Shown here: piece by piece, positions 16,264 to 28,327 of the stretch | How positions within the stretch are numbered: the stretch's first letter is position 1 | Layout: the number at the start of each line of letters is the position of its first letter | IMG/VR virus record: IMGVR_UViG_3300042569_000089 | Location: 1 to 30,626 of that record | From: a virus | Direction: 5' to 3' (one strand) | DNA: 30,626 nt | Program-made: the position numbers and the translations under genes | The notes under the pieces: generated by a model | Databases searched by the model: none | What the model was told of the DNA's origin: nothing | The model's input: the letters and a program-made list of their open reading frames with translations, nothing else

Positions 16264-17214
16264 ATGGCAACAACAACTTCAATTACTACTACTTACGCAG
16301 GCGAGTTCGCAGGTAAGTACATTGCTGCAGCTTTATTGTCTGCTCCAACCCTTGACAAAGGCGGTATCACTATCATGCCTAACGTTAAGTACAAACAAGT
16401 TATCAAACGTGTAGCTACTGATGGTATCATCAAGAACGCTACTTGTGATTTCGACCCTACGTCTACAATCACTTTGACTGAGCGTATCCTTCAACCTGAG
16501 TATTTCCAAGTTAACTTACAACTTTGTAAAACTGACTTCCGTTCAGATTGGGATGCTATCCAAATGGGTTACTCTGCATTTGATACCCTTCCTAAATCTT
16601 TCGCTGACTTCTTGATTGCACACGCTGCTGAGAAAGTTGCTGCAGGTATGGAAACTTCAATTTGGCAAGGTGTTAACGCTACTGCAGGTGAGTTCGCAGG
16701 TATCATGACACAATTGACTACTGATGCGTCTTTGCCATCAGGTCAAGAAGTTGCAGGTACTACCGTTACTGCCGCTAACGTAATCACTGAGCTTGGTAAA
16801 ATCGTTGACGCTTGTCCTGCTGCTCTTTACGGAAAAGAAGACTTGACACTTTACGTTTCTTCTAACATCTATCGTGCTTATGTTCGTGCATTGGGTGGTT
16901 TCGCTGCTTCAGGTGTAGGTGCAAATGGTTACGACAACAAAGGTACAAACCAACAACTTGGTGATGTTTACTTTGATGGTGTTCGTGTATTCATGGCTAA
17001 CGGTCTTGCTAACAACACTGCATTGTTGACTCAAAAATCTAACCTTTACTTTGCTACAGGTCTTTTGAATGACATGAACGAAGTTAAAGTATTAGACATG
17101 GGCGACCTTGATGGTTCACAAAATGTTCGTGTAATTCTCCGTTTTTCAGCAGATGCTAAATACGGCTTTGCTCAAGATGTTGTTACTTACGGAATCACAA
17201 ACTCTGCTAACTAA
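16264..17214 (+). CDS. Major capsid protein (HK97-like)
   Basis: 316 residues with a Thr/Ser-rich N-terminus, DKGGITIMPNVKYKQVIKRV, a central QPEYFQVNLQLCKTDFRSDW segment, helical FADFLIAHAAEKVAAGMETSIWQG and a beta-rich C-terminus (LTLYVSSNIYRAYVRALGG; FDGVRVFMANGLANNT). Size, order after protease and scaffold, and its own terminator identify it as capsid. Codon use is notably biased to fewer codons (GGT, GCT, AAC, CGT), as in highly expressed proteins. The HK97 fold is inferred. Confidence 0.85.
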   Translation: MATTTSITTTYAGEFAGKYIAAALLSAPTLDKGGITIMPNVKYKQVIKRVATDGIIKNATCDFDPTSTITLTERILQPEYFQVNLQLCKTDFRSDWDAIQMGYSAFDTLPKSFADFLIAHAAEKVAAGMETSIWQGVNATAGEFAGIMTQLTTDASLPSGQEVAGTTVTAANVITELGKIVDACPAALYGKEDLTLYVSSNIYRAYVRALGGFAASGVGANGYDNKGTNQQLGDVYFDGVRVFMANGLANNTALLTQKSNLYFATGLLNDMNEVKVLDMGDLDGSQNVRVILRFSADAKYGFAQDVVTYGITNSAN

Positions 17215-24561: not shown

Positions 24562-24569
24562 TATATTTG
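24536..24569 (+). promoter_or_regulatory. Bacteroidetes-type promoter overlapping end of late operon
   Basis: TTG (24536-24538), 23-base spacer, TATATTTG (24562-24569), at the upper limit of the consensus spacing. The -7 box directly follows the metallophosphoesterase stop. A terminator lies about 30 bases beyond, so the promoter would yield only a short RNA or an attenuated leader. Confidence 0.5.
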
Positions 24570-24600
24570 TGACATCCTAACCACTACTCCATAGCGTAAG

Positions 24601-24623
24601 AGCCTCCATTCGGGGGCTTTTTT
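24601..24623 (+). terminator. Rho-independent terminator of late operon
   Basis: AGCCTCC (24601-24607) pairs with GGGGGCT (24612-24618), loop ATTC, followed by six T. Strong stem and T-run. It ends transcription from the lysis/phosphoesterase genes and also any transcript from the promoter at 24536. Confidence 0.85.
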
Positions 24624-24742
24624 GTTAAATCTATTATACCTAATCGGGTATATTCCGACTATAAAGTTGAATTTTTACACCCTAAAGGGTATTTAAACAC
24701 ACATTAAAGTGGTGTTTTGTACATTATATGATACTTTATGTC

Positions 24743-24792
24743 ACAAAATCAGGGTAAAAATGTGACTATTTTGTAACAAAATAAGGGTAAAA
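24743..24792 (+). repeat. Two direct repeats, 33 bases apart, with a central palindrome
   Basis: ACAAAATCAGGGTAAAA (24743-24759) and ACAAAATAAGGGTAAAA (24776-24792) differ at one base. Between and overlapping the second copy is TATTTTGTAACAAAATA (24767-24783), a perfect 8-1-8 palindrome. The layout suits a dimeric repressor or initiator binding two faces of the DNA about three turns apart, upstream of the promoter at 24834. Confidence 0.7.
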
Positions 24793-24833
24793 CCTTATAC
24801 TCGAAAAAAAACTTTAAACATTTTGAAACTTTT

Positions 24834-24865
24834 TTGTTTATATATCGAATAAGTTTATATCTTTG
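24834..24865 (+). promoter_or_regulatory. Main early promoter
   Basis: TTG (24834-24836), 21-base spacer, TATCTTTG (24858-24865), a good match to TTG-N17-23-TAnnTTTG. The first early gene starts 23 bases downstream. The operator-like repeats lie 42 to 91 bases upstream of the TTG. Confidence 0.75.
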
Positions 24866-24888
24866 TCTAAACTTTTAATTTAAACGCT

Positions 24889-25654: not shown

Positions 25655-25797
25655 GATTTAAACTTACATACGAAATAGGACTTGCCGTAGTTCAGGAATG
25701 GATATTCACTTCAAAGAGTTTAGCTTATTGGAAGAAAATGGACTTGATAGAATCAGGCAGATACAACGACGGACGATTTAAAGTAACACCGCTATGA
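25651..25797 (+). CDS. Small hypothetical early protein, 48 aa
   Basis: Start within GCTATGA of the preceding frame and stop overlapping the next start. Mildly basic, with MRFKLTYEIGLAVVQEWIF, SLAYWKKMDLIESGRYNDG and GRFKVTPL. No recognised domain. It lies in the dense early cluster and is likely co-expressed with the DnaA-like gene. Confidence 0.5.
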   Translation: MRFKLTYEIGLAVVQEWIFTSKSLAYWKKMDLIESGRYNDGRFKVTPL

Positions 25798-25994
25798 CAC
25801 CAAAAGAAAAAGCAATAGAGTTAGTAGAGGAATTTGCATCCGTTTTAATGCACGATGAGGTTTATGAAGAATCCATTAAGTGCGCATTGATTGCAGTTGA
25901 TAAAGTAATTGAATCTTTACACGAGCACCATTGGCAAAATAGACTAATAATAAATTATTGGGAAGAAGTAAAACACGAAATCGAAAAGCTATGA
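25794..25994 (+). CDS. Small conserved phage protein, 66 aa
   Basis: Acidic and helical: TPKEKAIELVEEFASVLMHD, IKCALIAVDKVIESL and YWEEVKHEIEKL. I recognise the 'TPKEKA ... CALIAVD ... YWxxVKxEIEKL' pattern as a recurring small protein in Bacteroidetes phages, function unknown. Both ends overlap neighbours by ATGA. Confidence 0.7.
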   Translation: MTPKEKAIELVEEFASVLMHDEVYEESIKCALIAVDKVIESLHEHHWQNRLIINYWEEVKHEIEKL

Positions 25995-26401
25995 ACATAG
26001 AACAAGTAAAACAATACATTGAACAGGAAGAATTAAACGGACGCAGCAGAGAGCAGTTTTACGTCTTTAGGAGGCATTATCTTTCTTATGCTTTGTACCG
26101 AACTCAGGAACTAACCTTGAGCGAAATAGGCAGGGTGTTTAACCGGGACCATTCAACCGTATTACATTCGATACGAAAACACGAAGAACTAAAGAACGAT
26201 AGATTGTATCAAAAGATGATAGAAGACTGCGTACAACTGATGTCAGAGCCGTTGACGTTCACTAGGCAAAAACGTAATATATTTGAGGATATAGCTAAAG
26301 CTACAAACTACGAAAAACTACGCAGAGTTAGACGTTGGCTAAATGAGGGTAGATATGACCATCAAAATACTTTTCAACAATCGGAACAAAATGCAAGTTA
26401 G
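25991..26401 (+). CDS. Stand-alone DnaA domain-IV-like DNA-binding protein
   Basis: 136 residues. Residues 17-75 match the DNA-binding domain of DnaA: RSREQFYVFRRHYLSYALY, ELTLSEIGRVFNRDHSTVLHSI, with signature RDHSTVLHSIRKH at 52-64. There is no AAA+ ATPase part; the remainder (about 75-136) is helical and basic. ATG 25991 is preferred over 25958. It lies early, before the replication genes and about 1 kb after the control region, so it may mark the phage origin or act on the host oriC. Motif clear, role inferred. Confidence 0.78.
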   Translation: MNIEQVKQYIEQEELNGRSREQFYVFRRHYLSYALYRTQELTLSEIGRVFNRDHSTVLHSIRKHEELKNDRLYQKMIEDCVQLMSEPLTFTRQKRNIFEDIAKATNYEKLRRVRRWLNEGRYDHQNTFQQSEQNAS

Positions 26402-26406
26402 ATAGT

Positions 26407-26414
26407 TATATTTG
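26407..26414 (+). promoter_or_regulatory. Bacteroidetes-type -7 element
   Basis: TATATTTG, an exact match to TAnnTTTG, 6 bases after the DnaA-like gene. A clear TTG at 17-23 spacing is not seen, so the -33 element is weak. It would start the structured leader at 26415. Confidence 0.5.
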
Positions 26415-26509
26415 TACATGGTTCGCTCTCACAACATAGAACCTTAAGGTATTATTGACCCTTGTAATGAAGTAGATGTGAGAGCCTACGGATTTGCGAG
26501 GGTTTTTTT
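26415..26509 (+). ncRNA. Candidate structured leader or small RNA
   Basis: The 127-base gap between the DnaA-like gene and 26528 has a 9-bp inverted repeat GCTCTCACA/TGTGAGAGC (26425-26433, 26477-26485), an internal 10-base palindrome ACCTTAAGGT (26441-26450), and ACCCT (26458-26462) complementary to AGGGT (26499-26503) outside the stem, which would make a pseudoknot. It begins after a -7 box and ends at a terminator-like hairpin. Folding is by eye, and no Rfam family was checked. Confidence 0.35.
26485..26509 (+). terminator. Weak terminator or attenuator hairpin
   Basis: CCT(A)CG pairs with CGAGG across a GATTTG loop (one bulge), followed by seven T. A short stem with a good T-run, 19 bases before the next gene, suggesting attenuation of the replication genes. 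Confidence 0.5.
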
Positions 26510-26527: not shown

Positions 26528-26710
26528 ATGATTGAAATTAAAAATGATTGGTACTTAATCAAAGCAGAAAGGTCTGAATTTAAAGAAAATGGCAATGTTT
26601 ATATTATTGCTAATTATTCAAATGGATTAGAAGAGCGTTCAAGACGTTTTATAATTGGTTCGTTTATTCCAACAATGATTAATTATGAGCAAGGAACTAC
26701 CATTTTTTAA
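26528..26710 (+). CDS. Small hypothetical protein, 60 aa
   Basis: Mixed strand/helix protein (IEIKNDWYLIKAERSEFKEN; YIIANYSNGLEERSRRF). The last 26 bases overlap the next gene. No motif recognised. It is first in the replication block after the structured leader, so it is probably expressed with replication functions. Confidence 0.55.
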   Translation: MIEIKNDWYLIKAERSEFKENGNVYIIANYSNGLEERSRRFIIGSFIPTMINYEQGTTIF

Positions 26711-27302
26711 GTTTAACGCTACTGAGTGGATAACCGGTAACATTAGTTACGAGCCATTTGAATTGCAAGGTGCATTTATTAGTGTGTGCGCAGAGTATTG
26801 GAATAGGAATAATAACCTAACAATTGACGAAGCAAAGCTACGCTTAAGGCATGCTACAATAGTTGATTTATTGATTGAAAAAAGTTATTTAAAGACGAAA
26901 AAAAATAAAATAGTTATTTCGTTTTTGGATAAAGAACGTGAGGATATTGAATCTAAACGATTGAAACTCAGTGAATCAGGACGTAAGGGTGGCTTAAGCA
27001 GGGCTAAAGCATCGCTAAAGCAAGGCTCAAGCATTAAAGAAGTAGATAAAGATAAAGAATATAATATAGCTGAACGCAAACAAAAGTTTGCTTCTAATTT
27101 AACTTCTTTTATAGATGTCTATGGTAAGCAAATGATTAGAGACTTTTATGACTATTGGACTGAACACGGAGAGAAAGATAAAAAAATGCGTTACGAAAAG
27201 GAAACAAGTTTTAACTTAGATGCCCGTTTGAATCGTTGGAATAAAAACGTACAAGAACGTAACAAGCCAAAGTTTAACGCACCTACAACAATTATCGACT
27301 AA
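26685..27302 (+). CDS. Replisome organiser / helicase-loader-like protein
   Basis: 205 residues. The N-terminus (LPFFKFNATEWITGNISYEP, ELQGAFISVCAEYW, DEAKLRLRHAT) resembles the winged-helix domain of phage replication initiators (Lin1244/Lin1753, DUF4373-type). A charged linker containing SESGRKGGLSRAKA is followed by a C-terminal helix with FYDYWTEHGEKDKKMRYEK and FNLDARLNRWNKN, a motif seen at the ends of many such proteins. It likely loads the helicase encoded next (1-base TAATG overlap). ATPase motifs are absent, so it may be an organiser rather than a DnaC-type loader. Confidence 0.65.
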   Translation: MSKELPFFKFNATEWITGNISYEPFELQGAFISVCAEYWNRNNNLTIDEAKLRLRHATIVDLLIEKSYLKTKKNKIVISFLDKEREDIESKRLKLSESGRKGGLSRAKASLKQGSSIKEVDKDKEYNIAERKQKFASNLTSFIDVYGKQMIRDFYDYWTEHGEKDKKMRYEKETSFNLDARLNRWNKNVQERNKPKFNAPTTIID

Positions 27303-28327
27303 TGTATAAAAGACTAACAGACCTAAATTCCGAAATGTTTGCTGTACGTCAACAGGCAGATGTTAAAGGTAAATCAATCGGTTGGGATTGGGATATGCTT
27401 CCGTTTACAATCAAAGAAGGAGCTACAACTTACATAGGCGCAGCACCTGCATCAGGAAAGACGGAACTATGGTTTGAATTTCTTATAAACCTATCATGTT
27501 TACACGGTTGGAATCACGTAGTATTTTCGCCTGAGACCGGAAGCAGCGCAGAGATATTTGCAGAGCTTTGCTACAAATACATAGGTAAGCCATACGTTCA
27601 AGGCAAAAACTCAATGACTAACAGCGAGCAGGTAAGTGCTGAGATGTTTATAAATGAGCATTTTATTGTTATAGACCCTATTGATGAGGATTTAACTATC
27701 ACAAAATTCTACCAACTTGTAGACGAAATTGAACGAAAAGAGCAAATTACTATTCATACTACAACTATTGACCCGTGGAACGAGCTTACTGAGGAATTTA
27801 TTCCTGCTGATTTAGGACGTGAAGATAAATACTTGAGCAGGATTCTTGGTTTAGTTCGTAAGAACGCACGAAAAACAGGTAGACACAATTGCGTTATTAA
27901 CCATGTTAGAGACCAACCAATGGTCAGCGCTAAAACAATAGCAGGAACTGACATAAGTTATTTTCCTATGCCAAGTGCTCGAGATTTTGCAGGCGGTCAG
28001 GTATGGTTTAGAAAAGGTTTAAGCGTGTTAATTCCATGGCGTCCACCTTACGGACTTGGAGATGCAGACGGGGTAGGAGCAGAAAAAAACGAAGTGCATT
28101 TGAAAGTAGCTAAAAGCAAGCCAAAAGGCGTATCAAAAAACGGAGTTTACAAAATGTTTTTAGACGTTGACCGGTATCAGTATTACATGCTTGACTTTAA
28201 AGGCAAACGTGTTTATGCAAACCGAGGCACAACATACAAAAAAGAAAGTCAGGTAAAAATACCTCAAGATGGAATATTATCAACATCGGAGAAACTCCGT
28301 AATTTAGCAAACCAAAACCCTTTCTAA
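27302..28327 (+). CDS. DnaB-type replicative helicase (RecA-fold ATPase)
   Basis: 341 residues. Walker A GAAPASGKT at 46-54, FSPETG with catalytic-type Glu78, Walker B-like TIDPWNE at about 155-161, INHVRD with His201, and an arginine-rich DFAGGQVWFRKGLSVLI segment follow the DnaB C-terminal (RecA-fold) helicase order. It lacks the DnaB N-terminal primase-binding domain, giving a compact form. It should unwind phage DNA, probably loaded by the preceding protein. No primase gene is visible, so the host primase may be used. Confidence 0.75.
   Translation: MYKRLTDLNSEMFAVRQQADVKGKSIGWDWDMLPFTIKEGATTYIGAAPASGKTELWFEFLINLSCLHGWNHVVFSPETGSSAEIFAELCYKYIGKPYVQGKNSMTNSEQVSAEMFINEHFIVIDPIDEDLTITKFYQLVDEIERKEQITIHTTTIDPWNELTEEFIPADLGREDKYLSRILGLVRKNARKTGRHNCVINHVRDQPMVSAKTIAGTDISYFPMPSARDFAGGQVWFRKGLSVLIPWRPPYGLGDADGVGAEKNEVHLKVAKSKPKGVSKNGVYKMFLDVDRYQYYMLDFKGKRVYANRGTTYKKESQVKIPQDGILSTSEKLRNLANQNPF

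Follow-up and report, generated by a model that had tools for sequence, protein, structure and literature searches.

A stand-alone DnaA domain IV protein and an adjacent structured RNA leader in the replication region of a phage

An open reading frame at 25991-26401 of the window, i.e., the whole 30,626-nt stretch of virus DNA analysed here (IMG/VR record IMGVR_UViG_3300042569_000089), is confirmed to encode a stand-alone DnaA domain IV followed by a C-terminal tail, without an AAA+ part (hereafter the DnaA-IV protein). Directly 3' of its gene lie a promoter and an RNA of about 90 nt (together 26407-26509) with two complementary hairpin loops, and this RNA element may matter more than the DnaA-IV gene. 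As for function, the protein may be a DNA-binding component of the replication module that marks the phage's own origin, a reading to which we give somewhat less than an even chance: gene order favours it, while the studied precedents, GafA and GafY, favour transcription control. The features are collected in Table 1.

Table 1. Coordinates of the DnaA-IV gene, the RNA element and the neighbouring replication genes in the window.
Feature	Position	Strand	Basis or remark
Stand-alone DnaA domain IV protein with C-terminal tail, 136 aa	25991..26401	+	ORF; PF08299; structure match; pN/pS
DnaA domain IV proper, codons 10-63	26018..26179	+	PF08299 search of window record, E 4.9e-14
C-terminal tail, residues 88-136, conserved NIFEDI..KATN....RR.RRW.NEGRY	26252..26398	+	alignment; model
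Conserved AAC at the place of the Bacteroidota -33 TTG box	26385..26387	+	inside DnaA-IV 3' end; 72 promoters
Promoter -7 element TATATTTG, TAnnTTTG type	26407..26414	+	sequence
Structured RNA element, type A, 5' leader of next gene	26415..26509	+	covariation; no Rfam match
5' hairpin P1 (GGTTC/GAACC)	26420..26443	+	loop holds X1 = GCTCTCAC, 26425-26432
Terminator hairpin	26458..26503	+	apical loop X' = GTGAGAGC, 26478-26485; inner stem 26472-26475/26486-26489
T run behind terminator hairpin	26503..26509	+	sequence
Small ORF, 60 aa, directly behind RNA element	26528..26710	+	no significant family match
Probable loader/replisome-organizer-type protein	26685..27302	+	phrog_19415 (unknown function), E 9.5e-22
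Helicase-like ATPase, replication module	27302..28327	+	phrog_5482, E 9.5e-36; phrog_239 DNA primase/helicase, E 6.9e-11

The sequence-only reading of this DNA had proposed a DnaA domain IV signature lacking the AAA+ part, and both database and structure searches bear this out. The PF08299 (Bac_DnaA_C) model matches residues 10-63 with 47 bits (E 2.7e-12), above its curated cut-off of 31.5, and the full-length DnaA model TIGR00362 reaches 38.8 bits against a cut-off of 343.9; because the latter match is confined to the C-terminal end (model positions 361-430 of 437), the AAA+ part is absent. The five best phmmer matches in the PDB are DnaA chains (top E 4.7e-4). An AlphaFold model (mean pLDDT 82.3) retrieved the DNA-binding domain of Mycobacterium tuberculosis DnaA as the top Foldseek chain (E 0.046, probability 1.00) and, with residues 1-87, in VIA-align (3pvp_B, Z 9.5, rmsd 3.0), where ranks 1-5 are all DnaA chains (Z 9.5, 8.8, 7.6, 7.3 and 6.7; residues 1-89) and the first non-DnaA chain is Spo0J (Z 6.5). 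Z values below 8 are insufficient alone, and the assignment uses sequence and structure, which agree. The fold match covers residues 1-89 and hardly reaches the tail of about 50 residues, which is modelled as two helices with a disordered end. The ATG of the gene at 25991 overlaps the stop of the preceding ORF (25794-25994) as ATGA, and the two genes are therefore probably translationally coupled. The earlier reading had also placed the gene between the control region and the helicase genes; it does lie there, with AT-rich control DNA on one side and a helicase gene on the other.

Close relatives of the protein were found at 35 loci in IMG/VR, or 37 when alignment-derived patterns were used, the loci compared being contig fragments; a protein scan of a bacterial genome collection confirmed none. 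Judged by pN/pS, which ranges from 0.08 to 0.38 by segment among 27 distinct close-relative sequences, the gene is under purifying selection. The minimum falls at residues 19-36 and the maximum at 88-92 and 37-51, and from this distribution the gene appears to be maintained while the helix-turn-helix region and the patch at 88-92 change fastest. Across a 57-member family alignment, Arg20 (57/57), His54 (56/57) and Thr or Ser at 56 (57/57) are nearly invariant, position 55 is Ala in 43, Ser in 13 and Cys in one, and position 53, inspected by eye, is Asp, Asn, His, Thr or Ser. Arg20 is presumably the minor-groove arginine and the others the helix anchor and base-reading residues, going by DnaA-DNA structures. 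Since the former set is conserved and positions 53 and 55 vary, the family probably retains duplex DNA binding with changed specificity. Among eight diverged proteins encoded upstream of RNA elements (see below), seven match PF08299 at E <= 4.1e-5, two of the eight scoring above the cut-off and five below it, and one is unmatched.

The clearest variation of this kind is seen between loci L012 and L030, which are 98.1% identical across 4966 bp and yet carry exchanged helix-turn-helix motifs. Their 99 differences are clustered, 35 of them within the 70 nt encoding the helix-turn-helix and eight near residues 89-92; the recognition helix is RDHSTVLH in the window and L012 and RTHCTTFN in the other allele, which is shared by L033 and L034, two loci of other samples. 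Given that other clusters of differences exist, the swap may reflect general mosaic recombination or assembly chimerism. An operator swapped along with the helix-turn-helix was sought in the shared 5 kb, where none is evident.

That the protein competes at host DnaA boxes had been suggested in the earlier reading; as a way of silencing host initiation or host DnaA-regulated promoters this is now disfavoured, and we regard it as improbable. The idea draws on the window helix RDHSTVLH, which differs from the RDHTTVLH of E. coli by one conservative change, and on an apparent avoidance of the box TTWTNCACA, counted in the 90 of 155 loci kept after removal of redundancy, with 40 permuted patterns as control. 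The window holds none where about five are expected, and in 69 further non-redundant loci there are 70 against 112.0, a shortfall that only three of the 40 permuted patterns match. Against it, five of the 40 permuted patterns are likewise absent from the window, 10 of 40 are as low as the 26 observed against 35.7 expected in the 21 non-redundant close loci, and for the stricter TTATNCACA the counts in the larger sets are about as expected (11 against 11.8; 40 against 38.3). Nor are DnaA boxes of the TTATCCACA type enriched in the 21 and 69 loci counted, which speaks indirectly against them as the protein's targets; the base-reading positions are variable in the family, and RTHCTTFN stands in a relative whose stretch is otherwise 98% identical. 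The window protein could still bind DnaA boxes, its helix being near that of E. coli, but host boxes are probably not the main target. Taken together, the L012/L030 exchange, the variable base-reading positions and the missing enrichment suggest a phage-specific target.

A candidate for such a target had been the control region at 24562-24888, and comparison lends this no support. Two repeats of TNACAAAATNAGGGTAAAA lie in 24736-24792. As regards the repeats at 24745 and 24778, the window is the only one of the 90 retained loci with two exact copies of AAAATnAGGGTAAAA, and similar sequence is present in L004, L008, L078, L110 and others and absent from L012. The repeats do not track the recognition helix, as L012 shares the helix without having such sequence and L078 and L110 have repeat-like sequence with other helices, and they were rejected as target. 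The same region holds a second short promoter-to-terminator unit (24562-24626), running from TATATTTG to CATAGCGTAAGAGCCTCCATTCGGGGGCTTTTTT, of which CATAGCGTAAGAGCCTC is conserved in many relatives. Since CACTACTCC in this unit and GGAGTAGTG are exact reverse complements, a role as antisense RNA to the core of one of the two RNA element types described below (type B) was considered; it was discarded, the stretch being missing in several type B phages, such as L078, L115 and L037.

The RNA element and the loader-type ORF were both unmentioned in the earlier reading. In the window, the apical loop of the terminator hairpin, X', is complementary to X1 in the P1 loop, which would permit loop-loop pairing, and a hairpin with a T run close upstream of a coding start has, by sequence, the layout of a terminator or attenuator leader. 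A simple terminator scan, limited to loops of 3-8 nt, does not list this hairpin, and the folding energy of the element is unremarkable (z -1.76). Upstream of the -7 element, the usual Bacteroidota box is TTG, which is replaced here by AAC: in 72 distinct element promoters, positions -30 to -28 are A in 72, A in 57 and C in 49, the TAnnTTTG motif being present by construction as a parser requirement and the sequence further upstream being unconstrained. The reading frame in which this box meets the DnaA-IV 3' end differs from locus to locus, so that the constraint appears to act on the DNA.

Elements of two types were recognized, namely type A, that of the window, mostly with complementary loops of 8-9 nt, and type B, with loops of 6-7 nt ending in GCAG. 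Scans with the cores alone yielded 27 stretches of type A and 92 of type B, and a parser that required the promoter, P1, loop complementarity and the terminator returned 83 distinct strings. One of these was set aside as false, and the other 82 comprise 39 elements of type A and 43 of type B. For type A (the 39 strings plus an element of Tenacibaculum phage Gundel_1), 96.7% of cells are paired, 24 of 27 pairs show double changes, and the covariation score is 0.609 against 0.194 when shuffled and 0.053-0.108 when slid, even though the four GAGTCTCA rows and the Gundel_1 row, being partly out of register, weigh against the structure. None of 500 shuffles reaches the observed value on four of five measures, and 16 of 500 do so on the fifth, further pair types. 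Type B, counted on the 25 strings with 6-nt loops (the 18 of 43 with 7-nt loops being left out), gives 93.5% paired cells, 14 of 24 pairs double-changed and a score of 0.388 against 0.139 shuffled and at most 0.124 slid. Complementarity being a parser requirement, the paired percentage of the kissing helix is in part built in; the diversity of words that match is not. A later, looser type A core scan demanded neither loop complementarity nor the upstream gene, and an 8- or 9-nt complementary pair was present in 30 of 31 new elements, the exception being cut by a contig end, against 18 of 660 combinations of loops from loci of different words. By these comparisons, the covariation evidence for the type A structure is strong.

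The element is undescribed in the sense that it is unmatched in Rfam 15 and was not found in literature searches. Rfam gave no matches at the gathering threshold in the window or in eight element loci, and none on the element itself up to an E-value of 5; no literature was found on a kissing loop combined with an intrinsic terminator in Bacteroidetes phages. A scan of bacterial genomes with the type B core returned no matches.

The association of the element with the DnaA-IV gene was assessed with a profile of 57 aligned DnaA-IV proteins (E < 1e-3), built partly from the same loci after three of 60 upstream ORFs had been dropped as outside the family. Among places found by the RNA core, the DnaA-IV gene is the last ORF upstream in 16 of 21 of type A and 24 of 48 of type B; it is not directly upstream in 29 of the 69, five of which (one A, four B) are cut by contig ends, and the places without it often have an HNH-like gene, a 791-aa ORF or others behind the element. 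In the loci fetched later by the RNA core alone and unused for the profile, the gene stands upstream in 28 of 31, two of the three misses being cut by contig ends and one (L166) being real. These 28 are not all independent, six being at least 95% and nine more 90-95% identical to a profile member; the remaining 13 proteins are below 90% identity, and nine of these below 70%.

Such synteny, which recurs in Gundel_1, invites the idea that the DnaA-IV protein binds the adjacent RNA element and switches it, much as Rop acts on the kissing RNAs of ColE1. This we consider very improbable: DnaA domain IV is a binder of duplex DNA, the same element follows very different DnaA-IV proteins, L012 and L030 share their element despite the exchanged helices, and the 29 RNA-core places just mentioned have no DnaA-IV gene directly upstream.

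Several contigs add to the picture of where elements occur. On L100, L120 and L090 both types are found together, with loop words that differ; in L065, L071 and L101, where DnaA-IV is not directly upstream, a type B element lies 23 nt before the 791-aa ORF (MISIYKSVQQTF); and in L051, L052, L069, L088 and L149, RNA elements precede HNH/NUMOD4-like homing endonuclease genes (profile-searched in L051 only).

Downstream, 80 of 82 elements have the next ATG at a distance of 8-23 nt from the T run; in the window it is 18 nt, and the exceptions are L063 (45 nt) and L103 (a GTG start). With this spacing no second promoter of the TAnnTTTG kind fits before the next gene, which is thus most simply read from the element's own transcript. 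Of 56 type B elements, 51 are followed by an ORF of at least 150 aa. Behind type A, 18 of 35 next ORFs reach that length and 16, like the window's, stay below 100 aa; small ORFs whose sequences vary follow the leader in many relatives. In 40 of 82 elements, though not in the window's, a 6-mer from the element's own loop word is found again at or ahead of the next start; by hand count these are 38 of 43 of type B and two of 39 of type A. Per distinct combination of word and leader, the own word is found in 35 of 73, against 13 of 1235 for the words of other elements; the cases share ancestry and are not independent, yet several different words are matched by their own copy. With X1 and this third copy, X3, both covarying with X', each phage would have a private loop code, as antisense-controlled plasmids likewise do. 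Many Bacteroidota phages might control replication through an undescribed RNA switch behind the DnaA-IV gene, in which X' would pair with X1 or, in many phages other than that of the window, with an identical X3 at the helicase-loader start codon; X1-X' pairing would free the loader start and X3-X' pairing would shut it. This proposal is speculative and less likely than not to hold.

The genes behind the leader bring the argument back to replication. In addition to its phrog_19415 match, the ORF at 26685-27302 weakly matches phrog_9327, 'primosomal protein' (E 0.0067), and phrog_19415 is shared with a relative's gene at the same place, itself matching 'primosomal protein' and 'replisome organizer'. 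Among the genes behind the RNA in five relatives, one matches DnaD-like helicase loader, primosomal and O-like proteins, another primosomal protein/replisome organizer, two belong to families of unknown function and one is an HNH endonuclease.

Named phages, some of which (Gundel_1, phi19:3, Pelagibacter HTVC035P) were reached by routes other than a search with the window protein, extend the comparison. Cultured Gundel_1 has the order of the window, with a DnaA-IV gene (16309-16734), an RNA element, a 'replication protein' at 16904 and a 'DNA replication protein'. The element in this gap comprises TATATTTG, P1 (GTATA/TATAC), the loop word GTAGGATTC matched by GAATCCTAC, a terminator stem, a T run and an ATG; in an unfiltered model search of 7 kb it scores 23.8 bits (E 0.0026), and the filtered search did not list it. 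A second Gundel_1 element, of type A (33902-33998; L158:4009-4106; E 7.3e-9), stands 16 nt before an 'antirepressor protein' gene, so that one phage holds two elements whose loop words differ. In Cellulophaga phage phi19:3, an element with a loop word of 9 nt (23.1 bits, E 0.019) lies just before a gene pair ending in 'DNA replication protein', and its DnaA-IV gene lies about 2 kb before the latter, several small genes separating it from the element. A relaxed parser listed no element in seven other stretches from named or public phage records; it misses some, the known Gundel_1 element in L158 being unlisted, and in shuffled sequence (257,945 bases, two strands) it had no hit. From the promoter type and the named phages that carry the element, the host of the window phage is inferred to be a member of the Bacteroidota.

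Gene order is not uniformly favourable to an origin role. A DUF1376 gene precedes the DnaA-IV gene in Rhizobium phage RHph_N28_2, which counts in favour. Against that role, a methyltransferase gene follows it in Olleya phage Harreka_1, reverse-strand genes without a named replication function in two Pelagibacter phages, and unnamed genes in Bradyrhizobium phage ppBjS10J-1, phi19:3 and a Caudoviricetes record; the 29 RNA-core places lacking the gene directly upstream count on the same side.

The protein could also be conceived as a phage transcription regulator that binds early/replication or late promoters and either recruits RNA polymerase or blocks it, with the RNA leader as an independent second layer of control; this is a serious contender, if short of an even chance and slightly behind origin marking. 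GafA binds three promoters, namely its own, that of RcGTA and that for lysis (PMC6363796), and GafY, a homologue of DnaA domain IV, binds GTA operon promoters in ChIP-seq (PMC9632790). The non-canonical box conserved in the RNA promoter beside the gene would be in keeping with such a regulator, although it is conserved despite widely differing recognition helices and is thus not an obvious target; no operator could be named, and gene order points to replication in several phages.

Origin marking is an inference from gene order, because no binding site of the DnaA-IV protein was found. In the mechanism envisaged, the protein would bind a phage-specific duplex site as a monomer, contacting the minor groove through Arg20 and the major groove through the helix at about residues 54-59, while the C-terminal tail would contact a partner. 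It would thereby act as the sequence-reading component at the phage origin, the part that O plays in lambda, and mark the loading place for a DnaD/O-like loader and the helicase. A promoter within the 3' end of its gene would yield a leader with two kissing hairpins, the second a terminator, and this leader would set the output of the loader operon, expression depending on read-through; in relatives, the structured leader behind the DnaA-IV gene precedes a loader-type gene, in some cases with a small ORF interposed, as in the window.

In the records consulted, phage DnaA-IV genes go by names such as 'DnaA protein' or 'DNA replication initiation', and no test of their job was found; literature searches on DnaA-like phage proteins in Flavobacterium, or on the DnaA of Gundel_1 or Harreka_1, likewise returned nothing. 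The family offers natural experiments in the form of phages differing mainly in short patches that include the helix-turn-helix. The RNA leader ties replication, homing endonuclease and antirepressor genes of different phages to one kind of control, and its presence in cultured Gundel_1 and phi19:3 makes it testable.

DnaA-IV-only proteins are already a known kind, represented by GafY/HdaB and several named phages. The phage genes called 'DnaA' in Gundel_1, phi19:3, Harreka_1 and Pelagibacter HTVC035P and HTVC203P likewise encode short proteins with a DnaA-IV-like domain, with identities to the window protein, over the matched segment, of 35.1% (Harreka_1) and 39.3% (HTVC203P). The best studied examples, GafA of Rhodobacter and GafY/HdaB of Caulobacter, are transcription activators, GafY being a DNA-binding DnaA-IV homologue linked to a phage-like element (PMC6363796; PMC9632790). 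Like GafY/HdaB, the window protein has the domain, lacks the AAA+ part and is predicted to bind DNA; it differs in that the Gaf proteins are alphaproteobacterial, that GafY works with GafZ and that transcription activation has been shown for them, and no orthology is claimed. The DnaA initiator has the same domain IV fold and helix-turn-helix, whereas the window protein is missing the AAA+ part and has diverged at the base-reading positions. Lambda O and other phage origin-binding proteins are, like the window protein, small DNA-binding proteins encoded beside a helicase loader gene, but they have a different fold, and no iterons tied to the window protein were found. Finally, the RNA element shares with ColE1 RNAI/RNAII its fully complementary loops of 6-9 nt, and with attenuators a terminator in the leader; unlike in ColE1, both loops belong to one transcript, and in many relatives a third copy of the loop word lies at the downstream start codon.
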